DNA from: Herbaspirillum lusitanum P6-12
GTDB lineage: Bacteria > Pseudomonadota > Gammaproteobacteria > Burkholderiales > Burkholderiaceae_D
Direction of reading: 5' to 3'
NCBI RefSeq assembly: GCF_000256565.1
Contig: NZ_AJHH01000397.1
Location: 1-64,000, forward strand
DNA: 64,000 nucleotides
The notes below the pieces were generated by a model, which saw nothing but the letters and a program-made list of their open reading frames with translations, was not told the origin of the DNA and ran no database searches. Of the stretch, positions 5,646 through 48,700 are shown piece by piece; positions within the stretch are counted from its first letter, which is position 1, and each line of letters starts with the position of its first letter. Made by a program: the position numbers and the translations under genes.

Positions 5646-5673
5646 TCGTCCTATATAACAACCACTATTGAAC

Positions 5674-6849: not shown

Positions 6850-6859
6850 TTTGTTGTTT

Positions 6860-7729
6860 ATGAATCGTCTAGCGCTTGGCACCGTTCAATTCGGTCTGCC
6901 TTATGGTATCGCTAATCATGCCGGTCAAGTTGGCCGTGAAGAGGCTTCGGCCATGTTGCGGTTGGCCGAAGAAAACGGCATCGATACGTTGGATACAGCG
7001 ATTGCCTACGGAGATAGCGAGCGCTGCCTGGGCGAGATAGGCTGTGGGTCATTCAAATTAATCACAAAGCTGCCCGGCATTCCAGACGCTTGTGCTGACA
7101 TCGGGAATTGGGTGGGAGATCAGCTTGCCAAGTCCTTTTCCCGTTTGTCGGTTGAGCGTGTCTATGGCCTCATGTTGCATCGTCCGGAGCAATTGTTGAC
7201 ACATGATGGCGCCCGGATTTTTTCTGCTTTGTCCGACATGAAGGCCGAAGGAAAAGTGCAAAAAATCGGCATCTCGGTGTATAGCCCTGCTGACCTGGAC
7301 ACGTTGATTGCCAAGTTCAATTTCGATATTGTTCAGATCCCATTCAACCTGGTTGATCGCCGGATGCATCACGCGGGTTGGTTGCGAAAGCTCAAGGAAC
7401 TGGGGATTGAGGTGCATGCGCGTTCGGCTTTTCTGCAGGGCTTGTTGCTCATGTCGGAGTCGTCCATCCCTTCCAAATTTTCAATATGGACCGGTATCTG
7501 GCAGCGATGGCATGCATGGCTGAACCAGCATGATGTGACTGCGGTTCAGGCATGTCTGGCATTTTCACTGTCTTTCCCTGAAATCGATCGCGTTGTCATC
7601 GGTGCCGATTCGACAGTCCAATTGACTGAAATCATTGCTGCGGCAAAGAGAACGGCTTCATATGACTTCCCCGATCTGAGTAGTGACGAGGAAAATTTCG
7701 TTAATCCAGCAAAATGGTCCGCTTTATGA
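6860..7729 (+). CDS. Aldo/keto reductase of the pseudaminic-acid cluster
   Basis: This 289-residue TIM-barrel oxidoreductase starts with L-A-L-G-T-V-Q-F-G-L-P-Y-G. The D-T-A-x-x-Y-G active-site strand is at about 44-51, a K in I-T-K-L-P-G at about 69-74 and L-H-R-P at about 105-108. Together these supply the Asp-Tyr-Lys-His tetrad of the aldo/keto reductase family. Such genes often accompany nonulosonic-acid loci but are not among the six canonical Pse enzymes, so the substrate is unknown. It begins 10 bases after pseC and overlaps the next gene by ATGA. Confidence 0.8.
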   Translation: MNRLALGTVQFGLPYGIANHAGQVGREEASAMLRLAEENGIDTLDTAIAYGDSERCLGEIGCGSFKLITKLPGIPDACADIGNWVGDQLAKSFSRLSVERVYGLMLHRPEQLLTHDGARIFSALSDMKAEGKVQKIGISVYSPADLDTLIAKFNFDIVQIPFNLVDRRMHHAGWLRKLKELGIEVHARSAFLQGLLLMSESSIPSKFSIWTGIWQRWHAWLNQHDVTAVQACLAFSLSFPEIDRVVIGADSTVQLTEIIAAAKRTASYDFPDLSSDEENFVNPAKWSAL

Positions 7730-9753: not shown

Positions 9754-9783
9754 TTGACGACGAAGATTGAAGTGGCGCATACG

Positions 9784-11358
9784 ATGAATATCGCATTTAG
9801 AGTTGATGCATCAGATCAGATTGGAACCGGACATCTGATGCGTTGCTTGACTCTTGCCGACATTTTTCTCGGAAGAGGTGTTCGGGTTCAATTCATCTGT
9901 CGTGATCATTCGGGCAATCTCGTTGCACTGCTCAAAGACCGGAATATACCGGTACTTGTATTGCCTCGACCCGCGGAGCGGGCCTCTCAGCATTCTGAAG
10001 ACTACGCAATGTGGCTTGGCGTTTCGCAAATTGAAGACGCGGGGCACAGTATCGATGCACTCAATGGAGAAATTCCTGACTGGCTGATTGTCGATCACTA
10101 TGGTCTGGATGTGGAGTGGGAAAGGAAAATTCGCCCATTTGCCAAGAAAATCATGGTGATCGATGATTTGGCCAACCGGGTCCACGAGTGTGACGTTTTA
10201 CTAGACCAGAACTATGCGCTCAATGATCAGCGCTATGTTGAATTGCTACCCGTTTCGTGCCAATCCCTATTGGGGCCGCGGTATGCATTGCTTCGTCCTG
10301 AATATCGGCAGCACCGGGAGAGTGTTTGCCGTGGCGGGACTGTTGGAAAAATACTGATATTTTTTGGCGGAACTGACTCGTTCAATTTGACGGCATTGGT
10401 ACTGACTGTATTGAGCCTCCCCGAGTTTTCTCATATCGAAGTTGACGTGATCGTCGGTGCAAACAACAAACACCGGGTACAAATCGAAGCAATCTCGAAT
10501 GCGAGACCTCGTACGGTGCTGTATGGTCCCCGCAGTCACTTGGCAGATCTCATGGCCAGTGCCGATTTGTCGATAGGTGCAGCGGGAGGGACTACTTGGG
10601 AGCGCATGTGCCTGGGACTTCCATCACTGGTGATATCTGTAGCAGAAAACCAACTTCCGGGTGCGCGATCCTTGGCAAAGCAGAAGCTCATCAAATACGT
10701 TGGGCATCATTCTGACAATGTATCGGAGGCGCTAAAGCGTGATCTACATTATTTGATCAACGATGAATCCGAGTTGAGACAACTGACAGTGCGGAACCAG
10801 CAATTGGTTGACGGAATGGGCGCAATGCGCGTTGTAGAAGCCCTGAGTCCCAGCCCCGAAAAGCAATTCAAGCTCAGGAGAGCTGCAGCTCATGATATTT
10901 TTCTCTATTACGATTGGGCGAATGATCCTGCGGTTCGTAGCAATGGATTTAGTTCGGAACCAATTGCCTGGGAGGTTCACGAACAATGGTTTCAGGGGAA
11001 AATAGAAGATGCCGGAAGCTATTTGTTCGTCCTGGAAGTCTCAGGGCTACCAGTGGGACAAGTTCGTTTCGAGCGACGTGAGGACGATTTGAATATAGGA
11101 TATTCGCTTGATACGGTCGTCCGTGGGCGGGGTTGGGGGAAAGCTTTGATTGTTCTTGGCATATATTCGTTGATGAATTTGAATTCATCTCGGCTTCGTG
11201 CTGTGGTCAAATATGAAAATTTCGCGTCCAGAGCAGTCTTTCTTGGCTTGGGTTTTTTAGAGGAACCGAACCCTTCTGGTCATCAGTTTGATTACTACTT
11301 GAACTTCACGCAGAGAGTCGAAGTAACAGAGAAATTCCTCAGGCTCGGCGATATTTGA
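9784..11358 (+). CDS. pseG: Fusion: PseG UDP-sugar hydrolase plus GNAT N-acetyltransferase (PseH-like)
   Basis: Residues 1 to about 340 match PseG, which cuts UDP from 2,4-diacetamido-2,4,6-trideoxy-L-altrose. The N-terminus has the G-T-G-H-L-M-R-C loop at 14-21, and the GT-B-like C-half carries G-A-A-G-G-T-T-W-E-R near 265-275. Residues from about 360 to the end form a GNAT acetyltransferase. Its core R-G-x-G-W-G-K-A acetyl-CoA loop and its placement here suggest PseH, which acetylates the 4-amino group just before PseG acts. In H. pylori and Campylobacter these are separate proteins. The ATG at 9784 starts the first strand; TTG 9754 would add ten residues. Confidence 0.87.
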   Translation: MNIAFRVDASDQIGTGHLMRCLTLADIFLGRGVRVQFICRDHSGNLVALLKDRNIPVLVLPRPAERASQHSEDYAMWLGVSQIEDAGHSIDALNGEIPDWLIVDHYGLDVEWERKIRPFAKKIMVIDDLANRVHECDVLLDQNYALNDQRYVELLPVSCQSLLGPRYALLRPEYRQHRESVCRGGTVGKILIFFGGTDSFNLTALVLTVLSLPEFSHIEVDVIVGANNKHRVQIEAISNARPRTVLYGPRSHLADLMASADLSIGAAGGTTWERMCLGLPSLVISVAENQLPGARSLAKQKLIKYVGHHSDNVSEALKRDLHYLINDESELRQLTVRNQQLVDGMGAMRVVEALSPSPEKQFKLRRAAAHDIFLYYDWANDPAVRSNGFSSEPIAWEVHEQWFQGKIEDAGSYLFVLEVSGLPVGQVRFERREDDLNIGYSLDTVVRGRGWGKALIVLGIYSLMNLNSSRLRAVVKYENFASRAVFLGLGFLEEPNPSGHQFDYYLNFTQRVEVTEKFLRLGDI

Positions 11359-11500
11359 ATTCGTGAAATCGAAGTTCGCCGTGAAGCCTCTGTTCCGTGC
11401 CGAGGAAGTCTCGACGGCACAAACACGGCCCGTTATCTATTGATTCGGGTTCGCGTCAAATTGTGATCCATTTTTTTGGTGTTGGTACTGAGAGAAAAGA

Positions 11501-12541
11501 ATGAAAATAGGTAATCGAGAAATAGGACTGGGGCATGCACCCTTCGTTATTGCCGAGATGTCCGGCAATCACAATCAATCGTTGGAGCGGGCTTTGGAAA
11601 TCGTCGAAGTTGCTGCCAAGACCGGTGCCCATGCGCTGAAGATTCAAACCTATACGCCGGACACCATGACGCTGGATCTTGATGAGGGCGAGTTTCACAT
11701 AGGGGATCCAAATAGTCTGTGGGCAGGGACGTCGTTATACAAGTTGTACGGTGAGGCATACACACCATGGGAATGGCATAAGGCTATTTTCGACCGTGCG
11801 CAAGAGTTGGGAATCATCATCTTCAGCACGCCTTTTGATGACACTGCTGTCGACTTTCTCGACGATTTGAATGTTCCTTGCTACAAGATTGCGTCGTTTG
11901 AAAATACAGATTTACCGTTGATACGTCGCGTCGCGGCGACCGGTAAACCAGTCATTATTTCGACCGGTATGGCAACGGTGGCCGAATTGGAAGATACGGT
12001 CAATGCCGCACGGCAAGCAGGATGCACGGATTTGATTTTGCTTAAATGCACCAGTACTTATCCTGCGACGGCAAAGAATACGAACATTTTGACAATTCCG
12101 CATATGCGCCAATTGTTCAATTGTGAAATCGGTTTATCCGATCACACCATGGGGGTTGGCGTTTCTGTCGCCAGTGTCGCGCTGGGAGCCACTGTCATTG
12201 AGAAACACTTTACGCTCAGTCGGGCTGACGGAGGTGTCGACAGTGCATTCTCAATGGAACCCGCGGAAATGGCTCAGCTGGTTTTGGAGACTGAACGTGC
12301 GTGGGAGGCGTTGGGGCGTGTGAGCTATGGCCCTACGGAGGCCGAAAAAAAATCGCTTCAGTACCGACGCACTTTGTATGTTGTCAAAGATATGAGCGCC
12401 GGAGATCTTCTTTCGTCAGACAATGTTCGAGCGATTCGGCCTGGATCCGGATTGCAGACAAAGCACTTGCCGCAGATACTGGGTAAGGCAGTCAAGAGCG
12501 CTGTGAAACGAGGCACGCCTGTCTCTTGGGATTTGATTTGA
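11501..12541 (+). CDS. pseI: Pseudaminic acid synthase
   Basis: PseI condenses the 2,4-diacetamido sugar with phosphoenolpyruvate to give pseudaminic acid. Residues about 30-275 form the NeuB-type TIM barrel, with K-I-Q-T-Y-T-P near 48 and S-D-H-T-M-G near 211. Residues about 285-346 are the C-terminal SAF/antifreeze-like domain. The length of 346 fits. ATG 11501 follows an A/G-rich Shine-Dalgarno (AGAGAAAAGA). A 142-base gap separates it from the PseG fusion. The neighbours favour PseI over sialic or legionaminic acid synthases, although sequence alone does not fully separate these. Confidence 0.9.
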   Translation: MKIGNREIGLGHAPFVIAEMSGNHNQSLERALEIVEVAAKTGAHALKIQTYTPDTMTLDLDEGEFHIGDPNSLWAGTSLYKLYGEAYTPWEWHKAIFDRAQELGIIIFSTPFDDTAVDFLDDLNVPCYKIASFENTDLPLIRRVAATGKPVIISTGMATVAELEDTVNAARQAGCTDLILLKCTSTYPATAKNTNILTIPHMRQLFNCEIGLSDHTMGVGVSVASVALGATVIEKHFTLSRADGGVDSAFSMEPAEMAQLVLETERAWEALGRVSYGPTEAEKKSLQYRRTLYVVKDMSAGDLLSSDNVRAIRPGSGLQTKHLPQILGKAVKSAVKRGTPVSWDLI

Positions 12542-21374: not shown

Positions 21375-23348
21375 ATGAATATAGATACGTCTCACCCGGT
21401 AGCCGATAATTTGTTTCTGAAGTATGGGCTAGTCACCTTCACTTTTAGCGGGTTGTTCGTCAGTATTTTTGGCGCAGCGTTGGTTGGTCAATGGGAGCAG
21501 AAGTCAGTATTTCTTCTCGCTTCTGCTATCAACATCTATTTCGCTCTTGCCATCTGGGCTGGCGTGAAAAGGTTTCATAATTTTGGCATTGCGATACTCT
21601 TGGCGATTGTTCCATGCGTTCTGTCCCTCCTTTTCAAATTCCAGTATCTGATTCCAGCATTATCCATCCTGTATTTATATTTTCTGATTCGTTCGTTCAG
21701 CCATTCTGGCAACTTCCCTAAAGTTGCATTCATCGGGCTTCCTTTGGTTGCCGTTGGCTATGCCTTGATCATATTGGGCACTCCGCAAGCCACTGACATT
21801 TTTTTTCCATCGAAGATGTTGGTTGGGCAATTCAGTACTGACTCTTTCTTTCATATGGCAATAGCTTCGATGATTGAGCAGTTTGGGCAGGTCAGTATTG
21901 GCGCACACGGTCTTGTTCCAATCAAGTACTACACTCTCTCACATTACTTCTTTGCCTCAATCGCCTATTTGGGGGGGGTGCCGGTTCTTGCCAGTTATTC
22001 GGCAATGTACAGCATCGTGTTAATTCCCCTTTTGTTTTTGTCGATATCTGCAGTTGCAGAAGGCATCTCTGATTCCAGAAGCATTGGCGAATATATCGTG
22101 CGTCAGTTTTTCATCGGTTTGATTTTTTCGGGTTTTCTCGGCTACGGACCGAGCGATCTTTTCGCGCGCTACGCGATGTGGACCTCTTTTTTTTCGTCGG
22201 AATCGTACACGCTCTCAATCATCTTGCTGTGTGCCATGTTGTCGCTGTTGAATATCAAGCGCTTTGGAGTTCACCTGATCGCGGTTTGCGCATGCATTGC
22301 ATTGATGTGTCAGGCGAAGGCCAGCACGGCGGTAATTGCATACGGCCTATATGCGGCGCATCTTCTGTTTTTCAGTTCATTCAAATACAAGCAACGGCTG
22401 ATTGTGTTTGCGGTGTTTACGCTGGTTATATTGGTTTGTTTTAAATCAATTACACCTCAGACATCAGAAATGTTGAAAATTGATTACTTTGACTTTGTAA
22501 AAAATTATGTCCATGTGCAAGACCCCGGGATGTTGAAAGATGTCTCTCTCGGAGATTTCGGATTCTGGGGATTGCTGCTTAAATTTTCCGGTGTATTTTT
22601 TTTCTTCAGCTGGATTTGCCTTGTTCTTGTTGGCAACGCGACATTCTTTTCGCAAGGAACTCAATTGCTCAATGCGAAAGCACTCGTCTACAACGGTGTC
22701 GCTTTGTGCGGGGCGTTTGTCGCCGTAGTCTTCATGGTACTGCCAGGAGGTGCGGTATATTATTTTGCAAACGTCTCGATGTTTGTAGCATTGCCATTTA
22801 TTTTGATTTATATGGGGGCAAGCTTCCGCGTAGCAGGCCACAAACACAAGCTGTTAAGCATCTCCGCGATAATTCCGCTACTTGTGGTGTGCATTGGTGT
22901 CCATCAGTTGAAACCGCAGGCATTGGCATTCTATGACTTGGCACGACACAAATCTGAGCGCCTTCCGGTCACGGACGAGAACGCAAGATTCGCAGACTAT
23001 TTGCATCAATTGGAATCTGTACGGCAAGCAGATGAAACCAAAAAAATGCTGGTATACATTGCGAAAGACAATGTCAATTTTTGGGATGCGCCGACTACTA
23101 CGCCGTGTTTTTCCAAGACTTTTGCGATGGTCGCAGTTTCGGAGCGGCCCGCGCTATTTGGTCTTCAAGACAAATCGCGCTGTGAGGTCTTTTTCTATGG
23201 ATTTAACAGCTATCCAGACGAGCTGTACAAGCTGAGTTCTCGGCAAAAAATATCAGAGAAGGAGTTGCTCGGAGAAGCAAAGCGCTTGGGTTTCGACGGG
23301 TACGTAGAGGTCACTCAAACAGGATGGAATGCACATCGTGCGAAGTGA
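21375..23348 (+). CDS. Large polytopic membrane protein, GT-C-like (unassigned)
   Basis: A 657-residue protein with about 12-13 hydrophobic segments up to residue 510 and a soluble C-terminal part of about 140 residues. Near 156-190 is a loop with D-S-F-F-H-M-A and then Y-Y-T-L-S-H-Y, a D/H-rich pattern seen in uncharacterised GT-C-type membrane proteins that use lipid-linked sugars. That is a family-level resemblance only. A polymerase or ligase role cannot be excluded. A 162-base gap lies upstream. Its position at the end of the plus-strand block suits the final transfer step. It is convergent with the next operon, 24 bases away. Confidence 0.6.
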   Translation: MNIDTSHPVADNLFLKYGLVTFTFSGLFVSIFGAALVGQWEQKSVFLLASAINIYFALAIWAGVKRFHNFGIAILLAIVPCVLSLLFKFQYLIPALSILYLYFLIRSFSHSGNFPKVAFIGLPLVAVGYALIILGTPQATDIFFPSKMLVGQFSTDSFFHMAIASMIEQFGQVSIGAHGLVPIKYYTLSHYFFASIAYLGGVPVLASYSAMYSIVLIPLLFLSISAVAEGISDSRSIGEYIVRQFFIGLIFSGFLGYGPSDLFARYAMWTSFFSSESYTLSIILLCAMLSLLNIKRFGVHLIAVCACIALMCQAKASTAVIAYGLYAAHLLFFSSFKYKQRLIVFAVFTLVILVCFKSITPQTSEMLKIDYFDFVKNYVHVQDPGMLKDVSLGDFGFWGLLLKFSGVFFFFSWICLVLVGNATFFSQGTQLLNAKALVYNGVALCGAFVAVVFMVLPGGAVYYFANVSMFVALPFILIYMGASFRVAGHKHKLLSISAIIPLLVVCIGVHQLKPQALAFYDLARHKSERLPVTDENARFADYLHQLESVRQADETKKMLVYIAKDNVNFWDAPTTTPCFSKTFAMVAVSERPALFGLQDKSRCEVFFYGFNSYPDELYKLSSRQKISEKELLGEAKRLGFDGYVEVTQTGWNAHRAK

Positions 23349-30962: not shown

Positions 30963-31034
30963 TCCACAACCTTGTTGTGTCGACGGCCAAGTGATGTGGG
31001 CAGAGAAATTGTCTGCTATTTGAAAATTTACGTA

Positions 31035-32819
31035 ATGAATAAAAAACATTCACAGTCTTTCACGTTTTTGAGCAGTTTTGTTGGTCGAAAGACCGGGATA
31101 GCGCTATTGCTATCGGTGTTATTGATGTCCGTCCTGGATTTGATTGGCATTGCGATTATTTTCCCCTATCTGCAAATCATATCCTTGCCGGGTGAGTTCG
31201 CGCAGAAATGGTTGCCAGTTGGAATGAGGGATATTTCGGCACGAGCGCTATTGTTTTGGCTGAGCGGGGGATTGGCGCTTTTCTATATCGCAAAGAATTT
31301 CCTTCAAATGCGGCTGACCAGATACCAGTTCAAAAGTGCTGCTGAACTAACTCAGCGTCTGACGGATGACACCATTTCCTTGGTGCTGGGAGCACGCTAC
31401 GCTACTTTTCAAAAATTCCCTGCCTCCGAAATTGTCGGCATCGCTTCTTCAAACACTGTACATGCCACATTGGTGTTTCAGGCTCTACTGCAAATCATCA
31501 ACGAAATTGTTTTTTTAAGTTTGTTACTCTTGGCGATATTCAAGATCAATTTTTCGCTGGGCTGTGCGTCTGTGGTCATGATCGTTCTTTTGACAATTGG
31601 ACTGTACTTCTCCGTTATCAAACGCACCCAGCAACTGGGTTATGTTCAGGCAGTTGCCAACCGGAAGCGTTACGAGTTGCAGTTTTCTATCGTCACCGCG
31701 ATCCGCGATATCAAGGTGATGGGATTGGCTGTGCTATTTGATCGGCGTAGCAGAAAAATATCCGAGTCTTTTGCCGACGTTACCTGGAAATATGGATTGA
31801 ATGGCGTACTTCCGCGGCTGTATATAGAGCTCTTCATGTTGTTGGCGTTTGTCTGCGCAATTGTGCTGCTGGTATTGTCCGGAGGGGATCTGAAATCAAT
31901 GGTGCCCGTACTCGGGGTTATCGCCATTACTGCCATCAGGGCCATTCCGTCATTCTCGCGCCTCATCGTCGGAGTCAATGCTGTAAGGTATTCGCTCTCC
32001 TCGATGGAGGATCTGATCCTGACGCGCGATACTTTGGTTCAATCCGCACATGTGAGAAGTGTTGATCAAATCACCTTCGAGCGGGAAATTGAGTTGCGCA
32101 ATGTCTCTTTCAACTATGGCGACAGTCCTATTCTCAGAAATGTGAATTTGCGTATCCCGCGTGGTGGTGCAATTGGCATAGTAGGTCCATCAGGTTCGGG
32201 CAAGACAACGCTGCTGGATATCATTACGGGCCTTCAGGAGGCTGATTCCGGAGCAATATATGCTGACGATCGGCAATTCAATCCATTTACCAGTCACTCC
32301 CTGGAGCAGATGGTGGGTTATGTCCCGCAGGCGATTACTCTGCTCAATGAGTCCATCGCCTTCAACATCACATTTGAACAAGAGTACGACGGACAGCGGC
32401 TTGCCAAAGTGTTGAGTATCGCCAATCTCGACGCGTTTATCGAGGGGCTTCCGGATGGGGTTATGACGCTTGCCGGAGAAGATGGGCTGCGTCTTTCCGG
32501 CGGGCAGCGACAACGCATTGGTATTGCCCGGGCCTTGTACCGGGATCCCCAGTTGTTGGTGTTTGATGAGGCCACCAGTGCATTGGACACGATCTCCGAA
32601 GATGAAATATCAAAGGAAATCGAGCAGCTGCGGAAGACGATAAGCATTGTCATCGTGGCTCATCGATTGTCTACCGTCGTAAGTTGCGATGTGATTTACG
32701 TGATGGCGCACGGCTATGTTGTAGACGCCGGATCTCATCAGGAGCTTTTGGCGCGTTGTGCCCTTTATCGCGAGATGCATGTCCTGCAGGCGCAATCCGG
32801 ATCTGAACACACGAATTGA
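31035..32819 (+). CDS. ABC-type lipid-linked oligosaccharide flippase (PglK-like half-transporter)
   Basis: The 594-residue protein joins about six membrane helices (residues 1-330) to an ATPase. Walker A is G-P-S-G-S-G-K-T-T at 384-392, the ABC signature L-S-G-G-Q at 487-491, and Walker B with D-E-A-T-S-A-L-D follows near 508-516. Half-transporters of this type, such as PglK, flip lipid-linked oligosaccharides; others export toxins or lipids. Its place inside a glycosyltransferase cluster supports a flippase. A second, Wzx-like, flippase domain occurs at 43.5 kb. Start ATG 31035 is preferred to the longer ORF at 30972. Confidence 0.82.
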   Translation: MNKKHSQSFTFLSSFVGRKTGIALLLSVLLMSVLDLIGIAIIFPYLQIISLPGEFAQKWLPVGMRDISARALLFWLSGGLALFYIAKNFLQMRLTRYQFKSAAELTQRLTDDTISLVLGARYATFQKFPASEIVGIASSNTVHATLVFQALLQIINEIVFLSLLLLAIFKINFSLGCASVVMIVLLTIGLYFSVIKRTQQLGYVQAVANRKRYELQFSIVTAIRDIKVMGLAVLFDRRSRKISESFADVTWKYGLNGVLPRLYIELFMLLAFVCAIVLLVLSGGDLKSMVPVLGVIAITAIRAIPSFSRLIVGVNAVRYSLSSMEDLILTRDTLVQSAHVRSVDQITFEREIELRNVSFNYGDSPILRNVNLRIPRGGAIGIVGPSGSGKTTLLDIITGLQEADSGAIYADDRQFNPFTSHSLEQMVGYVPQAITLLNESIAFNITFEQEYDGQRLAKVLSIANLDAFIEGLPDGVMTLAGEDGLRLSGGQRQRIGIARALYRDPQLLVFDEATSALDTISEDEISKEIEQLRKTISIVIVAHRLSTVVSCDVIYVMAHGYVVDAGSHQELLARCALYREMHVLQAQSGSEHTN

Positions 32820-39128: not shown

Positions 39129-40376
39129 ATGAAAATATTGATTGTCAGCCAACATTTCTGGCCGGAAGGTTTTCCCATCAACGACATGGCGAAAGCGTTG
39201 GCGGCCAAGGGATTGGACGTAGATGTCCTGACCGGCAAGCCAAATTATCCCGATGGAGAGTATTTTCCGGGCTATAAGGGATTCGGTTGTCAGCAGGAGG
39301 CAATCGACGGCGTCACGGTCTATCGCGTGCCGCTGGTGGCCAGAGGGAATCGCAGCGCCGTCAGGTTGGTGCTGAACTATTTGTCCTTTATCGCCGCCGC
39401 TTGCATCTTTGGCCCTTGGTTACTGCGCCGGCGTCGCTATGACGCTATTTTCGTCTATGCAACATCCCCCATGCTGCAAGCGCTGCCGGCTTTGTTTTTC
39501 GGTTTTCTCAAGCGAACCAGAGTGACGGTCTGGGTACAGGATTTATGGCCGGAAAGTCTGGCTGCTACGGGGTATGTCAAAAGCCCTTTCGTCTTGAGGT
39601 GCCTTGCAAAAGTCATCGGGTTCATCTACCGCCATACTGACCTGTTGCTGGTTCAGTCGGAAGCATTCAGGCAAAGCGTGCAGGCTCTCGCGCCGGGAAA
39701 GCAGGTGATTTATTATCCCAACTCAGTGGATGCCATGTTCAGTACCGAACAACCTGATCTCCTATCCAGCGTGGATGCACCGATGCCGACGTTGCCGGAG
39801 CGGGGATTCTCAGTCGTTTTTGCCGGGAATATCGGCGCCGCCCAGGCGGTAGAAGTGATTGTCGGTGCTGCCGAGTTGCTGCGTCATCGCACCGACATTT
39901 CTTTTCATGTTTTCGGCAAGGGCAGCAAGTGGGATTGGCTGGCTGAAGAAGTGGGTAAAAGGGGATTGAACAATCTGCATTTGCCGGGTCGTTTTCCGGT
40001 TGAAACCATGCCGCGCCTTATGCGACAGGCATCTGCGTTGCTGGTGACGCTGGCGGATGAGCCGATTTTCGCCGCAACAGTGCCAAGCAAGGTGCAGGCA
40101 TACATGGCTGCGGGTCGGCCGATTATCGCCAGCCTCAACGGTGAAGGCGCCCGTCTGGTAACGCAGGCGCAAGCCGGTCTGGCAGTTCCGGCCGAAGACC
40201 CTGTTGCATTGGCCGATGCCGTCCTGCGGCTCGCAACGATGGCGCCTGAAGAGCGGGAACAACTGGGTAGTCGCGGTAAAATGTTCTCCCGGCAACATTT
40301 TGATCGGGAGAAGTTAATCGAACAATTGATCATCTATTTATCGGATGCGGCTGGCAATGCCGCAAAAGCGGAATGA
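39129..40376 (+). CDS. Glycosyltransferase WbuB-like (GT4; probable FucNAc-type transferase)
   Basis: The 415-residue enzyme opens with I-V-S-Q-H-F-W-P-E-G-F-P-I-N-D-M, the recurrent start of WbuB-type transferases. It has V-Q-D-L-W-P-E-S near 137-144 and the donor region T-V-P-S-K-V-Q-A-Y-M-A-A-G-R-P near 319-333. WbuB of E. coli O26 adds N-acetyl-L-fucosamine. The next three genes make a UDP-N-acetyl-6-deoxy-L-hexosamine, so the match in position supports that type of donor. It overlaps the next gene by ATGA. Confidence 0.8.
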   Translation: MKILIVSQHFWPEGFPINDMAKALAAKGLDVDVLTGKPNYPDGEYFPGYKGFGCQQEAIDGVTVYRVPLVARGNRSAVRLVLNYLSFIAAACIFGPWLLRRRRYDAIFVYATSPMLQALPALFFGFLKRTRVTVWVQDLWPESLAATGYVKSPFVLRCLAKVIGFIYRHTDLLLVQSEAFRQSVQALAPGKQVIYYPNSVDAMFSTEQPDLLSSVDAPMPTLPERGFSVVFAGNIGAAQAVEVIVGAAELLRHRTDISFHVFGKGSKWDWLAEEVGKRGLNNLHLPGRFPVETMPRLMRQASALLVTLADEPIFAATVPSKVQAYMAAGRPIIASLNGEGARLVTQAQAGLAVPAEDPVALADAVLRLATMAPEEREQLGSRGKMFSRQHFDREKLIEQLIIYLSDAAGNAAKAE

Positions 40377-41239
40377 AGATTTTAGTCTTGGGTGCAACGG
40401 GAATGCTGGGCAACGCAATGATGCGTGTGTTGAGTGAGGCCGTTGATTTCAATGTGCTTGGAACAATGCGTTCCGAAGCGGCAAAGCGCTTCTTTGCACC
40501 GGAGATCGCCTCACATCTCATCAGCGGCATTGATGTCGCGGACACTAATGTTCTCGCCGACATTTTCCACAAGCACAAACCCGATGTGGTGATCAATTGC
40601 ATCGGCTTGATCAAGCAACTGGCGCAGGCGGAAGATCCTGTGGAGGCCATCACGATCAATTCTTTGCTGCCTCAGCGACTGAAAAAACTCTGTGACGCGG
40701 CGCACATTCGCCTGATTCATTTCAGCACCGATTGTGTTTTTAGCGGTTCGCGCGGGGGCTACTCCGAAGATGAACTTCCGGATGCTCGTGATCTTTACGG
40801 CCGGTCCAAATTACTGGGTGAGGTTGACGGAGAAAATGTCGTGACATTGAGGACCTCCATCATCGGGCACGAACTTGTGGGCGCACACAGTTTGATAGGA
40901 TGGTTTCTGGCGCAGCAAGGGCAATGCACGGGATACAAAAAAGCCATTTTCTCGGGATTGCCAACGCCGGTCATGGCCGCTATCGTTCGTGACCACGTGA
41001 TCCCGGCTCCCGATTTGCACGGTTTGTATCATGTGGCGGCAGAGCCGATTTCCAAGTTCGATCTTCTGACTCTCGTTGCGGACGTATACGGAAAGCGTAT
41101 CGACATCATTCCCGATGAGAGCCTGGTCATCAATCGTTCGTTGAGCGCCGATCGGTTTGCCGGGAAAACGGGATTTCGCGCCGCACCCTGGCGCAAATTG
41201 ATCGAGGCAATGCACTCGCGCTACAAGGCATCAGACTAA
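40373..41239 (+). CDS. SDR reductase of the RmlD-like type (UDP-4-keto-6-deoxy sugar)
   Basis: The 288-residue SDR has G-A-T-G-M-L-G-N at residues 6-13, S-T-D-C-V-F near 121-126, and Y-G-R-S-K (Y-x-x-x-K) near 142-146. In L-hexosamine pathways it would reduce the 4-keto intermediate made by the FnlA-type enzyme. It lacks the C-terminal cupin of Cap5F/FnlB, so UDP-L-RhaNAc or UDP-L-QuiNAc (WbvR-like) is as possible as UDP-L-FucNAc. Confidence 0.8.
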   Translation: MKILVLGATGMLGNAMMRVLSEAVDFNVLGTMRSEAAKRFFAPEIASHLISGIDVADTNVLADIFHKHKPDVVINCIGLIKQLAQAEDPVEAITINSLLPQRLKKLCDAAHIRLIHFSTDCVFSGSRGGYSEDELPDARDLYGRSKLLGEVDGENVVTLRTSIIGHELVGAHSLIGWFLAQQGQCTGYKKAIFSGLPTPVMAAIVRDHVIPAPDLHGLYHVAAEPISKFDLLTLVADVYGKRIDIIPDESLVINRSLSADRFAGKTGFRAAPWRKLIEAMHSRYKASD

Positions 41240-41319
41240 GCCCTTTGGGGTTGAACGAACTGACGTCACAGACATCGCATCAATAAACCATCTATTCATT
41301 GTTGAAACCGAGAAATTAT

Positions 41320-42330
41320 ATGTTTGATAATAAAGTACTGATGATCACAGGTGGCACCGGCTCTTTCGGCAACACCGTCCTGAAACGTTTTCTTGACACC
41401 GCCGTGCGTGAAATCCGCATCTTCAGTCGCGATGAAAAGAAGCAGGAAGACATGCGTATTGCACTGAAAAACGACAAGGTCAAATTTTATATCGGTGACG
41501 TACGCAATTACGACAGCATTGCCCAGGCCATGGTTGGCGTCGACTTCGTTTTCCACGCGGCGGCATTGAAGCAAGTTCCGTCCTGCGAGTTCTATCCGAT
41601 GGAGGCGATTCGCACGAATATCCTCGGTACCGAAAACGTGCTGAATGCAGCTATTGCCTCGAAGGTAAAGCGGGTAGTCGTGTTGAGTACCGACAAGGCG
41701 GTTTATCCTATCAATGCAATGGGTATTTCCAAAGCCATGGCCGAGAAACTTGTTACCGCAAAGTCGCGCGGCATTCCGGCCGATGGGCCGCGGATTTGCG
41801 CCACACGCTATGGCAATGTGATGGCATCGCGCGGTTCGGTGATTCCGTTGTTTGTATCGCAGTTAAAAGCGGGGCAGCCGCTCACGGTCACGGATCCGAA
41901 TATGACACGCTTTCTGATGTCACTGGAGGATTCTGTCGATCTGGTGTTGCATGCATTCGAACACGCGCAACAAGGCGATTTGTTCGTACAGAAAGCGCCG
42001 GCGTCGACGGTCGCTGATTTGGCTCAGGCATTGCGCGAATTGTTCAAGCTCGACAATCCTGTGAAGGTAATCGGCACTCGCCATGGCGAAAAATTGTATG
42101 AATCGTTGATTTCCCGGGAGGAGATGGCCAAGGCGGAAGACATGGGGCGGTACTATCGTGTGCCGGCCGACAATCGGGACCTCAACTACAACAAATATTT
42201 CGTCGAGGGCGAGTCGCATATTTCTGAATTGGACGACTACACTTCGCACAATACGCAGCGCCTCAATGTCGAAGAAATCAAGACGCTGTTATTGAAGCTG
42301 CCGGAAATTCGGGAGGCGCTTGATGCTTAA
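41320..42330 (+). CDS. fnlA: UDP-N-acetylglucosamine 4,6-dehydratase (FnlA/WbjB/CapE type)
   Basis: A 336-residue inverting dehydratase and epimerase. The Rossmann motif T-G-G-T-G-S-F-G-N is near 9-17, K-Q-V-P-S-C-E-F-Y-P near 87-96, and the triad is completed by S-T-D-K-A near 121-125 with M-G-I-S-K-A replacing the usual Tyr, as in the family. The Q-V-P-S-C-E motif and the S-H-N-T-Q-R-L ending fit FnlA/CapE rather than PseB, so this is not the missing first step of the Pse pathway. The ATG at 41320 is preferred to TTG 41299. Confidence 0.88.
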   Translation: MFDNKVLMITGGTGSFGNTVLKRFLDTAVREIRIFSRDEKKQEDMRIALKNDKVKFYIGDVRNYDSIAQAMVGVDFVFHAAALKQVPSCEFYPMEAIRTNILGTENVLNAAIASKVKRVVVLSTDKAVYPINAMGISKAMAEKLVTAKSRGIPADGPRICATRYGNVMASRGSVIPLFVSQLKAGQPLTVTDPNMTRFLMSLEDSVDLVLHAFEHAQQGDLFVQKAPASTVADLAQALRELFKLDNPVKVIGTRHGEKLYESLISREEMAKAEDMGRYYRVPADNRDLNYNKYFVEGESHISELDDYTSHNTQRLNVEEIKTLLLKLPEIREALDA

Positions 42331-43450
42331 GGTCATGACGTTGGTTGGAACGCGTCCGGAGCTGATCAAAATGAGCCGGGTGATCGCCGAGTGCGATCGC
42401 CAGTTCAATCACGTGCTGGTGCATTCCGGACAGAACTACGACTACGAATTGAACCAGATCTTTTTCAATGATCTCGAAATTCGTCAGCCGGATTTTTTTC
42501 TGGAGGCTGCTGGTGAAACCGCGGCCAAGACAATTGCGGCAGTGATTGAAAAATCCGACGCGTTGTTTGCTCAGGAAAAACCGGATGCGCTGCTTCTGTA
42601 CGGCGACACCAACACTTGTCTGGCGGTGATCTCGGCAAAGCGAAGAAAGATTCCCGTGTTTCATATGGAAGCGGGCAATCGCTGTTTTGATCAACGTGTT
42701 CCGGAAGAACTCAATCGCAAGGTTCTTGATCATCTGTCCGACATCAACATGGTGTTGACTGAGCATGCGAGGCGCTACCTGATCGGCGAGGGCATCAAGC
42801 CAGAAACGATCATCAAGACCGGCTCGCACATGCGTGAAGTGATTGACCACTACCGCCCGAAAATTGAAAACTCGGATGTCTTGTCGCGCTTGAATTTCGA
42901 GCCCGGGAAATTCTTTGTGGTCAGTGCGCACAGGGAGGAAAATGTCGATTCACCGGAAGCGATCAAGGACTTGCTCGAAACACTGCAGGCGCTGGTGCGC
43001 AAGTACGGACTGCCGATCTTTGTGTCGACGCATCCCAGAACACGCAAGCGTCTTGAAGAAATCGGGTACGAAGAACTGGATTCTCGTATTGTGTTTTCCA
43101 AGCCGTTGGGTTTTTTTGACTACATGAAACTCCAAATGAATGCGCTTTGCGTGTTGTCTGACAGCGGAACGATTACAGAGGAGGCCTCCTTGCTCAATCT
43201 TCCCGCCATCACAATACGCAACGCACATGAGCGTCCTGAAGGCATGGATGTCGGAACATTGATCATGGCAGGGCTTAAGGCAGAGCGTGTCATTGACGCG
43301 ATTGAAATCATCGCTTCTCAACGTAAGCGCAAAAGTCAACCGGTGCTCCCCGTTGCAGATTACGAAAATCCCAATGTATCGAAGCAAGTCGTCCGCGTGG
43401 TAGCTAGTTATGTTGACTACATCAATCGCGTAGTCTGGTCCAAGCCCTGA
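42323..43450 (+). CDS. wecB: UDP-N-acetylglucosamine 2-epimerase family (WecB/FnlC type)
   Basis: The 375-residue enzyme opens V-G-T-R-P-E-L-I-K and has the W-e-c-B-family H-M-E-A-G-N-R motif near 112-118, S-A-H-R-E-E-N near 204-210 and S-D-S-G-T-I-T-E-E near 279-287. It should epimerise C2 of a UDP-HexNAc-type sugar. As the third gene of an FnlA/RmlD-like/epimerase trio it would act at the last step. GGAGG at 42312-42316 supports ATG 42323, eight bases before the fnlA stop. Confidence 0.88.
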   Translation: MLKVMTLVGTRPELIKMSRVIAECDRQFNHVLVHSGQNYDYELNQIFFNDLEIRQPDFFLEAAGETAAKTIAAVIEKSDALFAQEKPDALLLYGDTNTCLAVISAKRRKIPVFHMEAGNRCFDQRVPEELNRKVLDHLSDINMVLTEHARRYLIGEGIKPETIIKTGSHMREVIDHYRPKIENSDVLSRLNFEPGKFFVVSAHREENVDSPEAIKDLLETLQALVRKYGLPIFVSTHPRTRKRLEEIGYEELDSRIVFSKPLGFFDYMKLQMNALCVLSDSGTITEEASLLNLPAITIRNAHERPEGMDVGTLIMAGLKAERVIDAIEIIASQRKRKSQPVLPVADYENPNVSKQVVRVVASYVDYINRVVWSKP

Positions 43451-43547: not shown

Positions 43548-45989
43548 TTGCGTTACTCATTTCCCTTGGCGTTCATGGCGAATACGTTCGCTGTGACGGT
43601 GCTTCTCATTGTTCTCGGTCTCGCCGGGCATCAGGTCATGGCGGCAGAGGTCGGTGTCGTCCAGGCCGCTACGCTGGCTTTGCTCTACGCCTTCTCGGCG
43701 AATGCGCGCAGCCTCATCCTCAGCAAGACTTCCGGTGTCTCCGCGTATGCGGTCATGTCGGGGCGGTTGCTGCTAATGGCCCCGCTGGCGGTGGCGTCAT
43801 ATTGGCTGAGCGCCGATGTGGCGGGCGCAGAACCTTTGTTTGCCGTCATCTTGATTGCACGTCGTTGCATCGAGTGGATCGGCGAGGTGCATTTGAGCGA
43901 GATGGAGCGTCTTGGCAAACAACGTGTAGCCAAGGACTATGTTGTCTTGCAATCATTCTTGTTGTTCGGTGTCCTGGTCTGGATTGTCGGCGACTTTCCC
44001 CTTCCGTTGGTGGGCCTGTCTTTATGGGCGGGCGTGCCGTTGCTCTTCAGCGCCAGATTCCTGGTGGGCTTGCGCAGTCTGGCAGGCAACCCGCTGCGAG
44101 GCTCCGTGCGCAAGATCCTGCCGAATCTTGGATCGACCGCGATCATCGGCATCACAGTCTATGTATTTCGGGTGTTGATTCTGCTGGTGACGACCAAGGA
44201 GGTGGCCGGAGACCTGTTTACCGCGTTTGCTATTGGCGGCGCCATCGGCTCGATCTTTGCTAATGCTCTTGGCGCGAGCATCGCTCTGCATGAGCAGAAT
44301 AGTGGCAAACCTCATCAGCCCCTGTTTCTACGGCTCGCACTGACCCTGTTGCTATTTTCCGGGCTTTGCCTGACGGTGATGGCACTTCTGCAACTGCCGA
44401 TTCTGGAGTTGACCAAGAAATCCTTCTTTTTCTGGCAGGCAACGGGGTTATCCATGATCGGTGGCGTCATCATGGTCCATGCCCAGAGAACACGCTTCCG
44501 TCTATTGCAGCATGATGCCGAACATGATGTCTTCGGTCCTGACGTGCTGATGAATATCCTTATCTTCGCCGTAGTGCCATTTTCATTCTATCTGTTTGGC
44601 CTGCAGGCGCTGAGCGCCTTATACCTAGCCAGTTCATTGATGGCGTACGTGTTCTACTTCAGCGCGAAGAAGGAAAAGCAGGAAAACATGGGCGGGCAGG
44701 TGTGGTCTGTCACGACCGACCGGACATTGCGCATGGCGATTGCGGCTTTGTTGCTGTTGCCTCTGTTTCTCCAGATCGGCCATGGTGTATTCCATAGCGA
44801 TTCAGCCATGTATGACTCAGGGGGAAGAATCACGGATCTTCCCATTCCATTTTCCGCGTTGTGCTGCTATCTCGGGATTCTGTTGTTGGGCACCTATCGG
44901 CGCGCGTTTTTGTCGTTCAGCTATATCTTCATGACCTGTGTCCTGATGATCATGTCGGCTATTATTCTCACGCAAAATATTCCTGACCAGCAGCAAGCAA
45001 AATTCCTTCTGCTGATCCAGCTTTTGCTGCCGATGTTTGCTCTGGTATTGGGGCAAGTGTTTGAGCCCCGGGATGTCGTCAATGAAGACATATATCCCAA
45101 AGCATTCTTCTGGGTGCTGATCGTTACTGTCCCACTCCAACTGATCTATACCTGGCAGTCTGGAAGTGGCTATCTGTCTCCGAGGCTGGGGTTGTTTTCC
45201 GCTTACCAGGCGCTCGAGTATGTGCCGCTTGTGTTTGTTGCCGCGTACATCGTCGCCTTGTTTAGTTTGTGGAAGTTGCCGCAATACAGGCCTGGTTTCT
45301 TTGTGCTGTCAATTTGCATGGCCCTCTATGCGGTGGCGTCATCCTCGATTTTAAGCTGTCTGTTGTTGTGCATCGGAACGGTTGTTTTCTCTTGGCAGCG
45401 CACACAGCGCAATGCCGTCCTGCCGATGTTGCTGTTGATCAGCGTTCTAGTCGGTGGTGGGGCGTACGCGACATATGCAGCGCATCTGACGACACGGGCT
45501 GCTTCCTATGCCGCAGTTTCGATCGCCAAGGACGGCACCGCTCCCTCAGCGAATCCCATTTCTCTAATCGAAATGCAGACCCGTTTTTCTGAACGCATCA
45601 AGTATTGGGACTTTTACTTCAACGGAGTGACCTCCGGCATCAAGTCACTTTTACTGGGAGCAAGTAGCGCGCCTGAACGCAACCGCTATCCGAGTGCGCA
45701 TAACTACTATCTGGATTTTCTCTACAACTTCGGACTGATCGCTTTGCTGCCGACGTTGCTGCTCATTGGTGTCACGGTGAAGAGAATGCATGGTATGTGG
45801 CATGAAATCAAAGATTCGCCGGCCTTGTTGTCGCTCAGCTTGGTGGTCCCGTATCTGGTGATTGTCGACAACACCGTCAAGGTCAGCATGCGACAGCCCT
45901 ATTCAGGGGTTTTCATTTTCTTCCTGTGGGGGTTGTTGATCACGAAATTATCAAAATTGCGTATGAGGGCTCCTGATGCAGCAGCATAG
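43548..45989 (+). CDS. Probable fusion of a Wzx-like flippase and a Wzy/WaaL-like polymerase or ligase
   Basis: An 813-residue integral membrane protein. Residues 1 to about 385 look like a MOP/MATE-type flippase: about 10-12 helices with small polar-lined segments and, near the start, A-A-E-V-G-V-V-Q-A-A-T-L-A-L-L. Residues about 400-813 add a second group of about 10-12 helices and end with H-N-Y-Y-L-D-F-L-Y-N-F-G-L, the typical C-terminal motif of O-antigen polymerases and ligases. The only start I can support is TTG 43548, with GGAAGA ahead. The gene overlaps the next by 14 bases. A fused flippase-polymerase is unusual and the exact activities are unproven. Confidence 0.72.
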   Translation: MRYSFPLAFMANTFAVTVLLIVLGLAGHQVMAAEVGVVQAATLALLYAFSANARSLILSKTSGVSAYAVMSGRLLLMAPLAVASYWLSADVAGAEPLFAVILIARRCIEWIGEVHLSEMERLGKQRVAKDYVVLQSFLLFGVLVWIVGDFPLPLVGLSLWAGVPLLFSARFLVGLRSLAGNPLRGSVRKILPNLGSTAIIGITVYVFRVLILLVTTKEVAGDLFTAFAIGGAIGSIFANALGASIALHEQNSGKPHQPLFLRLALTLLLFSGLCLTVMALLQLPILELTKKSFFFWQATGLSMIGGVIMVHAQRTRFRLLQHDAEHDVFGPDVLMNILIFAVVPFSFYLFGLQALSALYLASSLMAYVFYFSAKKEKQENMGGQVWSVTTDRTLRMAIAALLLLPLFLQIGHGVFHSDSAMYDSGGRITDLPIPFSALCCYLGILLLGTYRRAFLSFSYIFMTCVLMIMSAIILTQNIPDQQQAKFLLLIQLLLPMFALVLGQVFEPRDVVNEDIYPKAFFWVLIVTVPLQLIYTWQSGSGYLSPRLGLFSAYQALEYVPLVFVAAYIVALFSLWKLPQYRPGFFVLSICMALYAVASSSILSCLLLCIGTVVFSWQRTQRNAVLPMLLLISVLVGGGAYATYAAHLTTRAASYAAVSIAKDGTAPSANPISLIEMQTRFSERIKYWDFYFNGVTSGIKSLLLGASSAPERNRYPSAHNYYLDFLYNFGLIALLPTLLLIGVTVKRMHGMWHEIKDSPALLSLSLVVPYLVIVDNTVKVSMRQPYSGVFIFFLWGLLITKLSKLRMRAPDAAA

Positions 45990-47466
45990 AATTTTACCTC
46001 AATTGATCACGAGGATTTTTGTCTTCGTCTTTGTGGCTATCATGCTGGTATTGGCGGTTATTACCTTTCATGAATATCCCGGTAGCGGCTATATCTATTT
46101 GCTTTTCACGGTGATATCGAACTATCTTCTATGGCTCGGGTTCCGAAGGAACGCGATCTATTTTGATACCTTCATCGGGGTTCTTTTTTATCTTGGTTTC
46201 TGGCTCAAGTTGAGCATTCGCGTCGCGTTTACCGAAGGTCGATTCGTTGAACAGACTGGAAACTTCGACGGATCCGGCGCGGCCTTTGACCGCGGACTTC
46301 TGGTTGCTTCCTGCGGATTGTTTGCATTAGTGACGGTTTCCCTGGTGCGTGAGCGCTTGTTCCAGTATGACAAGAAGCCATCGGCCGTGCCGAGCCACCT
46401 AGGAACATATTGTTTCTATCGAAAGCACCGCAAACTTCTACTGGCCACCTTTGCCGTCCTATGCCTGAGCGTTGCCATTACGAATATTGTGTTGGGCATT
46501 TATCAACGTGGACAAGTGTCCCAGATCGTCTTGCCCCTCGGCTTGAATGGAGTTTACAAATGGCTTCTGCAGTTTGGGCTTGCCTCGTTCGGCGCATTGA
46601 TTCTGCACTATGAATACGTCGTCGCGCAACGAACTTCGATTACCGGCTGGCTGTTTGCCCTGCTTGAAGGCTTTACCTCCAGTGTTTCCTTGTTGAGTCG
46701 AGGAATGGTGCTGAACTGGAGTGCCTTGTTCTTCGGATTTTTTCGTAGTGTGCAATTCAATCGACTTAAGATAAAACCAACTTTCCTCGTCGTCGTCGTC
46801 TTGTTGTTCGTGCTGTTATTTGGAAGCTCCGTTTTCTCTGTCAACTATCTGCGTCTTCAAGGGGCGTTCGCGCATGTTGCGCAAGAATTCTCTTCAGATC
46901 GGGATTGGGGGTGGCGAGGCAACGGCTCGTCAGAAAATGCCCGCATGGTCAACAACATGGGGAAATCCCTTTTCATTGACCGTTGGGTCGGGATGGAGGG
47001 AGTGCTTGCTGTAACAAGTTCCGGGAGGGAAAGCTGGGATCTCTGGATGCAGGGGTGGCGGGAGCAATATTTCGAGAATCGTACCAGTTTCTTTGATTTG
47101 AACATGGTGGATTCTCCGTACCTCAAAGCGGACAGCTCGGTTCATCACTACATTTCCTTGCCAGGCATCATTGCGTTCTGTTTTTATTCCGGTTCGTTTG
47201 TACTGTTGTTCGGGTGCATGCTTCTGGTGGGGGCAATAGGGGCCGTAATTGATGTCGCGGTATATCGTCTGGGCGGCAAGAATCTGATTTTGTGCTCACT
47301 CTTTGCGCAAGTCGTTGCTTATCGTTTTTCTAGTTTTGGTTACGTTCCCTCGCAGTCTTACCTGCTTTTTGGGTCCTTGTTTTTGAACCTGGTGATCATT
47401 TTTGGCGTGGAAAAATTGTTTGCGCATAAATTGAATCATGTATCGGGAGATGCTCAGTCAGGATAA
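45976..47466 (+). CDS. O-antigen polymerase-like membrane protein
   Basis: The 496-residue protein has about ten hydrophobic segments and a periplasmic-like loop near 275-360 that is rich in polar residues and contains S-S-D-R-D-W-G-W-R-G-N-G. No strict signature exists for Wzy; membrane layout and position are the evidence. It starts at ATG 45976 with GAGGG six bases upstream, inside the previous gene's end. With the fused protein upstream, one of the two is likely the ligase or polymerase. Confidence 0.6.
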   Translation: MQQHRILPQLITRIFVFVFVAIMLVLAVITFHEYPGSGYIYLLFTVISNYLLWLGFRRNAIYFDTFIGVLFYLGFWLKLSIRVAFTEGRFVEQTGNFDGSGAAFDRGLLVASCGLFALVTVSLVRERLFQYDKKPSAVPSHLGTYCFYRKHRKLLLATFAVLCLSVAITNIVLGIYQRGQVSQIVLPLGLNGVYKWLLQFGLASFGALILHYEYVVAQRTSITGWLFALLEGFTSSVSLLSRGMVLNWSALFFGFFRSVQFNRLKIKPTFLVVVVLLFVLLFGSSVFSVNYLRLQGAFAHVAQEFSSDRDWGWRGNGSSENARMVNNMGKSLFIDRWVGMEGVLAVTSSGRESWDLWMQGWREQYFENRTSFFDLNMVDSPYLKADSSVHHYISLPGIIAFCFYSGSFVLLFGCMLLVGAIGAVIDVAVYRLGGKNLILCSLFAQVVAYRFSSFGYVPSQSYLLFGSLFLNLVIIFGVEKLFAHKLNHVSGDAQSG

Positions 47467-47602: not shown

Positions 47603-48700
47603 ATGTCATCGCTATTCATCAGTTTCCTTATTTCGGCCGTCATGACATTGCTCGTTATCCGATATTCGAGCTTGCATGATGGCATGCTGGACTCCGACTT
47701 GGATGGTGTGCAAAAGGTGCATGTTCATGCCGTGCCACGTATCGGTGGCCTCGGGATATTTCTTGCCGTCATTTGCGGCAGCGTTTATTCGGCTTGGCGT
47801 CAGCCCGATATCGCGCGAAGTATCGGACTGGTGCTTGTTTGTGCGAGCGTTGCTTTCGGCGGAGGCATTGTCGAGGACTTCACCAAAAGCGTGAGTCCGA
47901 AAAGACGGCTGCTGCTGACGATGCTCGCTGCGTTGCTGGGGTTCTGGCTGCTTGATGCTCGTATTGACCGGATTGATCACTTTTCCGGAAGCTGGGGTCT
48001 GAACTACACATGGATCAGCCTTCCGCTGACGGTTCTTGCTGTAGCGGGAATTGCCAACGCCATCAATATCATCGACGGTTTCAATGGACTGGCCAGCATC
48101 GTTGCGTTATGCATGTTGTTGTCTCTTGGTTACGTGGCGCTGCAAGTTGGCGACTCCTTCGTTTTGATCACAGCGCTGCTGGTGGCCGGTGCGGTGGCCG
48201 GCTTCTTTATCTGGAACTATCCGGCTGGATTGATTTTCATGGGAGACGGTGGCGCGTACTTCCTCGGTTTCATGTTGGGGGAGCTGGCGATTTTGCTGGT
48301 GATGCGCAATCCACAGGTGTCAACATGGTATCCGGCGCTGTTGCTGATCTATCCCTGTTTTGAAACCGTGTTTTCAGCATATCGGCGTTTCTTTCTGCGG
48401 GGACAGTCTCCCGGCATGCCGGATGGCATTCACTTGCACAGTTTGATTTTTCGCCGTCTCGTCCTGTGGGCCGTAGGGAGACGTGACGCGCGTACCTTGA
48501 CGCGGCGCAATTCGCTCACTTCGCCCTACCTCTGGCTGTTGTCGCTGATGGCGGTTGGGCCTGCAACGTTGTTGTGGCGTCATACCTGGGCGCTGATGCT
48601 GTGTTGTGCCCTGTTTGTACTAAGCTACGTCTGGTTGTATTCGCGCATTATCCGGTTCAAGTCTCCACGTTGGCTGATTCTGCGGAAAAAGCATAAATAG
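47603..48700 (+). CDS. Undecaprenyl-phosphate sugar-1-phosphate transferase (WecA/WbpL family)
   Basis: This 365-residue integral membrane protein has the initiating-transferase motifs. A loop V-H-A-V-P-R-I-G-G-L-G is near 38-48, the D-G-F-N-G-L-A-S metal/nucleotide motif near 156-163 and G-D-G-G-A-Y-F-L-G-F near 214-223. It transfers a HexNAc-phosphate or similar from a UDP-sugar to Und-P and so starts the chain. WbpL in Pseudomonas uses UDP-FucNAc, and the trio upstream could supply a similar donor. It is the last gene of the island before the GC-rich core genes. Confidence 0.85.
   Translation: MSSLFISFLISAVMTLLVIRYSSLHDGMLDSDLDGVQKVHVHAVPRIGGLGIFLAVICGSVYSAWRQPDIARSIGLVLVCASVAFGGGIVEDFTKSVSPKRRLLLTMLAALLGFWLLDARIDRIDHFSGSWGLNYTWISLPLTVLAVAGIANAINIIDGFNGLASIVALCMLLSLGYVALQVGDSFVLITALLVAGAVAGFFIWNYPAGLIFMGDGGAYFLGFMLGELAILLVMRNPQVSTWYPALLLIYPCFETVFSAYRRFFLRGQSPGMPDGIHLHSLIFRRLVLWAVGRRDARTLTRRNSLTSPYLWLLSLMAVGPATLLWRHTWALMLCCALFVLSYVWLYSRIIRFKSPRWLILRKKHK

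Follow-up and report, generated by a model that had tools for sequence, protein, structure and literature searches.

A conserved fusion of probable MOP-like and Wzy_C-like membrane halves in a polysaccharide gene cluster of Herbaspirillum lusitanum P6-12

A polysaccharide region of Herbaspirillum lusitanum P6-12, whose genus belongs to the Oxalobacteraceae, contains one long membrane-protein gene that raises the question of whether a flippase and an O-antigen polymerase or ligase may be joined here in a single chain. A preliminary description of the window (the whole stretch of 64,000 nucleotides that was analysed) had proposed such a fusion. Our results show that the fusion is genuine and conserved and that its halves are probably MOP-like and Wzy_C-like, and coupled flipping and polymerising is plausible.

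The fusion gene and its homologues

Positions 43548-45989 hold a real, single gene (Table 1), whose TTG is preceded by a GGAAG stretch that finishes 9 bases upstream. The frame is free of stops and its product has two hydrophobic halves, as the preliminary description had claimed, with the join near residue 378; the HNYYLD motif occupies residues 718-723. That description had placed the boundary at residues 390/395, some 10-15 residues beyond the point where the first half finishes (about 375-378); the first helix of the second half starts near residue 393. It had also considered that the whole protein might belong to one family of about 800 residues, and no Pfam or NCBIfam family was found to span it.

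Table 1. Features of the fusion gene and its neighbours in the window (cluster counts refer to the 17 clusters with a fusion gene)
Feature	Positions	Strand	Properties
WcaI-family glycosyltransferase	39129..40376	+	relative at at least 40% identity in 12/17 clusters
RmlD-like reductase	40373..41239	+	relative at at least 40% identity in 13/17 clusters
UDP-GlcNAc 4,6-dehydratase/5-epimerase, FnlA-like	41299..42330	+	at least 40% identity in 13/17 clusters
WecB-family UDP-GlcNAc 2-epimerase	42320..43450	+	relative at at least 40% identity in 14/17 clusters
Fusion gene	43548-45989	+	TTG start; 813 aa; stop-free 813-codon frame
N-terminal half, residues 1-378	43548..44681	+	12 predicted TM helices; MOP (Wzx/MurJ)-like; more conserved half
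Basic linker between halves, about residues 374-392	44667..44723	+	predicted cytoplasmic
C-terminal half, residues 379-813	44682..45986	+	about 12 TM; Wzy_C superfamily; large predicted periplasmic loop with R683 and H718-N719
Companion multi-TM protein	45976..47466	+	496 aa; ATG overlaps fusion gene end; no known family
WecA/WbpL-type initiating transferase	47603..48700	+	Glycos_transf_4

For the topology, lysine and arginine residues were counted in the short loops, with helix limits taken from low-confidence models and by eye, without a topology predictor. The counts were higher inside than outside in 17/17 sequences, with the same inside-out pattern throughout, and the linker reached the top value among the short loops (mean K+R of 4.3). 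An N-terminal half (N-half) of 12 transmembrane (TM) helices with both ends inside fits this bias and the 12 helices of a low-confidence model. Likewise, about 12 TM helices and a large periplasmic loop in the C-terminal half (C-half) fit the charge pattern.

Full-length, single-frame homologues were found in 17 genomes, including our own. Judged by the genome handles, these represent 11 genera in 10 families, and one belongs to another class. The preliminary description had suggested counting the fusion in related genomes, and the count shows conservation beyond what could be known from the window. As 16 other genomes carry a full-length single-frame homologue, the frame is neither accidental nor a product of misassembly. 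The search sets overlap and gave 9 holders among 198 relatives, 6 among 399 genomes of the order, 4 among 369 of the class, 3 among 398 of the phylum, and 1 among 78 of the class of genome G886. The order count omits a match in G171, which was dropped as chance (E=0.006, 16 bits, internal stop), and the class count omits G866, which has a C-terminal remnant only and is outside the 17. That remnant of the C-terminal end (L046 6852-7211) is flanked on both sides by glycosyltransferase genes, and its cluster has a separate Wzx. Within the genus the fusion is patchy, occurring in 5 of about 34 genomes (G000-G033; the denominator is inferred). Identity to the window protein ranges from 37 to 83% for the N-half and from 28 to 69% for the C-half; the closest named relative, Herbaspirillum sp. 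CF444, shares 75% identity over residues 1-812.

The two halves share a common history. In 8/8 accepted genomes, the frame detected with the N-half profile spans 808 codons or more, and no stand-alone N-half was found in the order, the phylum, or the class of G886. The C-half occurs alone once, on contig C22 of G153, where a companion gene adjoins it and the stretch holds no trace of an N-half; this supports residue 378 as the approximate position of a true limit between domains. G153 carries this pair of companion and stand-alone C-half (L020 613-3539) in addition to the fusion. The N-half and C-half distances correlate (Mantel r=0.86, 0/5000 permutations), and the well-supported clades are identical in both trees, so the halves have evolved side by side ever since they were joined long ago. 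Divergence was lower in the N-half than in the C-half for 123 of 136 pairs. This slower divergence, together with the many charged residues invariant in the 17 N-halves (R54, R73, R105, R106, E109, E113, R208, R316, and D332), argues for a working domain under constraint.

We also looked for independent Wzx-Wzy fusions in eight stretches chosen among longer frames, six with Wzy_C matches and two with MOP matches; none of the eight joins both families (Pfam was run on six). A 979-codon frame of G002 (L230 738-3674), in which about 480 residues of an unassigned membrane protein precede a MurJ-family domain (PF03023, E=3.5e-24), may be another flippase fusion. Additionally, the Wzy-like proteins encoded by L227 2067-5441 and L228 1513-4140 are long and carry large loop insertions, and a VanZ domain starts the L227 protein.

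Ancestry of the two halves

For the first half, read as a MOP-type flippase in the preliminary description, a relationship to MOP emerges from comparison with broad profiles and not from the family libraries. The Pfam MOP models (PF13440, PF01943, and PF03023) matched 0/9 N-halves and 0/2 consensus sequences, with chance-level rows only; no MOP family of NCBIfam fits the window N-half, and the PDB sequence search returned no meaningful match for it. The profile of the N-half was compared by HHalign with a merged MOP profile built from 44 Wzx sequences and 17 of MurJ. The local alignment gave E=1.3e-4 (54%), and the global alignment gave E=5.8e-7 (86%) and was collinear over residues 1-377, whereas control profiles (MFS, Wzy, companion, and C-half) reached E=0.03-0.8 against the same merged profile. 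None of 100 helix-block shuffles was as good as the real N-half, and reversed sequences lose the MOP signal with both the Wzx and the MurJ profiles.

The signal depends on the profile used. With the 44 Wzx alone, E was 0.0049 in the local mode (2/100 shuffles as good) and 1e-4 in the global mode (0/100); in an earlier run of 60 shuffles against Wzx alone, the best shuffle outscored the real order in both modes. The MurJ-only profile gave E=0.013 locally and no global match, and the signal was absent against five in-cluster Wzx alone (E=0.22) and against E. coli WzxE alone (E=0.58). Adding WzxE to the merged profile weakened the result to 7.1e-4 in the local and 4.1e-6 in the global mode. A clean separation from the shuffles was thus obtained with the merged Wzx and MurJ profile only. 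Most of the MOP signal lies in the second lobe, the first lobe alone giving E=0.054; an internal repeat was not seen when the lobes of the N-half were compared with each other (E=0.28), whereas the MOP profile shows its own repeat (7.5e-7).

Other approaches were less informative. HMMER with its filters on found no match for the N-half in pooled Wzx, MurJ, MFS, Wzy, and companion sequences; with the filters off, MurJ took the first six places (E=0.06-0.32), ahead of MFS at about E=1, a ranking that is suggestive at most for MOP kinship. Two AlphaFold models, built from the window and Herbaspirillum sp. CF444 sequences only, had confidence too low for use as structural evidence (pLDDT 40.6 and 35.6); the first shows 12 helices. 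Foldseek with this first model returned noise: the best E was 0.43, with no MOP-superfamily flippase among the best 50 of 237 matches. From the profile-profile comparisons with broad profiles, we consider a MOP ancestry of the N-half probable.

The second half, as judged by its sequence, is a divergent protein of the Wzy_C superfamily, in agreement with the preliminary description. The window C-half matches Wzy_C (PF04932) at E=6.4e-5, below the curated cut-off; the consensus of the family reaches 36.6 bits and passes the cut-off of 31.7, and HHalign against Wzy_C proteins of relatives gave 96-98% probability. Among ten members, five have Wzy_C matches at E<=1 (best 2.4e-9), and the member of G163 has no Wzy_C row at E<=0.01. 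In the loop, R683 is present in 15/17, H718 in 12/17, and N719 in 16/17 sequences; H718 is replaced by Y, Y, R, F, and Y in L005, L007, L029, L038, and L039, respectively. Near the C-terminus, an RQPY-x-G motif is invariant in the 17. In MagA, the Wzy_C polymerase of K. pneumoniae K1, R290 and H323 are required, and two Klebsiella Wzy homologues have Asp in place of this His (PMC3485256). R683 and H718 are apparent counterparts of MagA R290 and H323, and the loss of His in 5/17 is a caution and not a refutation, since the Klebsiella homologues have Asp there.

A Wzy_C protein over the cut-off is present in 41/41 genomes examined, our own included, while the fusion itself is below it. The fusion is not the sole candidate ligase of the Wzy_C family in its own genome, which encodes two further Wzy_C proteins that pass the cut-off; the one on contig C812 (L048) adjoins a GT8 transferase and is a better WaaL candidate than the fusion. 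In 4/17 genomes (G153, G163, G886, and G199), the stretch that holds the fusion also contains a separate WaaL-like gene. The presence of these other proteins makes a polymerase more likely than a ligase for the C-half.

The surrounding cluster and the proposed function

The genes upstream of the fusion suggest an L-FucNAc pathway. We take the WcaI-family transferase to be WbuB-like, the RmlD-like reductase to be FnlB-like, and the WecB-family epimerase to be FnlC-like; the FnlA-like, RmlD-like, and WecB-like genes would presumably form a UDP-L-FucNAc set. The FnlA-like protein scored 569.5 bits, under the equivalog cut-off of 730. The window cluster continues into genes of the LPS core, which encode heptosyltransferase I (waaC) and Kdo transferase (waaA). 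The same polysaccharide region also has pseudaminic acid genes PseC, PseG, and PseI (window 5668-12541; NCBIfam above cut-off) and encodes a multi-TM protein of 657 aa that lacks a match in Pfam (window 21375-23348).

The companion gene is probably translated together with the fusion, as the end of the fusion overlaps the companion ATG (45976). Homologues of the companion (about 490 residues) lie near 13/17 fusions, with a distant relative near a fourteenth (G206), and none was seen near the fusions of G163, G199, and G153. The fusion of G153 is at a contig end, and the companion in that genome adjoins the stand-alone C-half instead. The companion has many invariant residues, including the stretches SRGM and RWVG, and it may be a polymerase itself or a partner.

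Six of the 17 fusion clusters (G425, G731, G1210, G886, G206, and G163) also have a stand-alone Wzx, encoded on the same strand; therefore, the fused N-half is not everywhere the missing flippase. No separate Wzx was found in the remaining 11 clusters, within stretches from 17 kb (G031) to 64 kb (the window). Elsewhere in our own genome, contig C324 encodes a Wzx-like protein and C463 a MurJ. Genome-wide, PF13440 gave one match of MurJ size in each of G008 and G748 and zero in G153; the same search missed the Wzx of G163 and G731, which a MOP profile built for this analysis detected, so it cannot prove that another Wzx is absent. The window cluster also encodes an ABC exporter (30972-32819) with an ATPase domain and no recognised membrane family. 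It resembles the PglK-type flippases and could be an alternative flipping route.

One member of the family is larger. The frame of G163 has 1238 codons (L019 7745-11443), with a GT2 domain (PF00535, E=5.9e-29) in front of the N-half, in the same open frame and predicted to lie in the cytoplasm. Since translation might also begin at a start codon just ahead of the MOP half, synthesis as one chain is deduced from the open frame. The C-half of G163 is about 100 residues longer through a loop insertion without counterpart in the other 16, for which a carbohydrate-binding module is a guess. This cluster is among those with a separate Wzx.

The best single explanation, which we put forward tentatively as falling a little short of an even chance, is one polypeptide with about 24 TM helices in a Wzx/Wzy-type O-antigen route that couples flipping and polymerising. 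The repeat unit would be made with L-FucNAc by the neighbouring genes and, finished and linked to undecaprenyl diphosphate, would be moved across the inner membrane by the 12-TM MOP-like half. The end of this half would emerge in the cytoplasm and lead into the short basic linker; the Wzy_C-like half, with its Arg/His loop toward the periplasm, would polymerise the unit, and the companion encoded next door would probably join in. Flipping, polymerising, and a direct hand-over by the fusion are what we infer. The 17 single-frame genomes, the merged-profile MOP match, the Wzy_C match, and the shared history of the halves support this explanation, as do the 11/17 stretches with no separate Wzx, the UDP-L-FucNAc-type neighbours, the nearby waaC and waaA, and the GT2 domain of G163. 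The wider proposal of a single-chain assembly line for the O-unit, with flippase and polymerase permanently joined and, in G163, a GT2 domain that would covalently link three consecutive steps, is possible and rather doubtful.

Several observations weaken a simple Wzx-Wzy fusion: the separate Wzx in 6/17, the replaced His in 5/17, the lost Arg in 2/17, the companion as a second polymerase candidate, and the ABC exporter that could flip. The separate Wzx and the ABC exporter fit an alternative in which the N-half is MOP-derived and non-flipping or auxiliary, docking or receiving the lipid-linked unit while the Wzx or the exporter translocates it. The C-half and companion without any N-half on contig C22 of G153 fit it as well. 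We regard this alternative as unlikely, given that 11/17 clusters have no other Wzx over the 17-64 kb searched and that the N-half, unlike a decaying domain, is better conserved than the C-half and retains numerous charged residues. The MOP part of the preferred explanation is itself weakened, because no Pfam or NCBIfam family matches and the signal hangs on the choice of profile. A 12-TM domain unrelated to MOP flippases, in a two-domain polymerase of a new family, would account for the missing family-library and PDB sequence matches, for the little or nothing obtained with narrow Wzx profiles and single WzxE, and for the poor predicted model (low pLDDT). However, the broad-profile HHalign signal is MOP-specific, collinear over the full length, unreached by helix shuffles with the merged profile, and lost on sequence reversal with the Wzx and MurJ profiles, which leaves an unrelated domain improbable.

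The C-half could instead be a ligase or oligosaccharyltransferase (WaaL/PglL-like) with the companion as Wzy, making the protein a flippase-ligase fusion. The Pfam name of the family, 'O-Antigen ligase', the invariant stretches of the companion such as SRGM and RWVG, and a locus adjoining waaC and waaA all suit this possibility. Nevertheless, the C812 protein beside GT8 is the better WaaL candidate, every one of the 41 genomes has a Wzy_C protein over a cut-off that the fusion does not reach, a separate WaaL-like gene lies near the fusion in 4/17, and the His is replaced in 5/17; we assign a ligase function a low probability.

Relation to known systems and significance

Compared with the Wzx O-unit flippases (PF13440/PF01943), the N-half shares the 12 TM helices, the best profile match, and many invariant Arg residues, and Wzx genes are normally found in this type of cluster, as the fusion gene is. 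The N-half differs in lying below Pfam detection, in being part of a fused protein, and in a first lobe that is barely recognised. The lumen of WzxE is lined by two arginine pairs (PMC11706664), to which R54, R105/R106, R208, or R316 of the N-half might correspond. With Wzy_C polymerases such as MagA, for which 10-11 TM are predicted (PMC3485256), the C-half shares the PF04932 match, a loop with Arg and His-Asn, and about 12 TM; it differs in sitting behind a 12-TM half, in the replaced His (5/17), and in the RQPY-x-G invariant in 17. The WaaL O-antigen ligases belong to the same Pfam family as the C-half, but the genome has another, better-placed Wzy_C protein and the His of the fusion is variable. 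MprF, described as synthase and flippase in one protein (PMC8131360), is an earlier case of a lipid flippase joined to an enzyme from its own pathway, although its families are unrelated and its substrate is an aminoacyl phospholipid.

A 2015 model paper treats Wzx, Wzy, and Wzz as one complex as an open question, with only the Wzy-Wzz contact confirmed (PMC4863624). The passages on fusions and on Wzx in a 2025 Wzy review mention no Wzx-Wzy fusion (PMC12004945). Among the titles and abstract openings covered, with subscription papers and preprints outside this scope, none reports a Wzx-Wzy or flippase/polymerase fusion; this silence is not proof of novelty. In a survey of Oxalobacteraceae O-antigen clusters, the Wzx-Wzy route could not be confirmed for lack of wzy genes, and its clusters are apparently without Herbaspirillum, which is named only in the introduction and references (PMC9834719). 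Fusion-type proteins, which lie below the standard model cut-offs, are of the kind that wzy searches such as those of PMC9834719 would miss.

The weight of the finding rests on the architecture of the protein. A natural fusion across 10 families would fix a 1:1 ratio of the two activities and provide a handle for structure and genetics. The physical link between flippase and polymerase, long suspected, would become directly testable.
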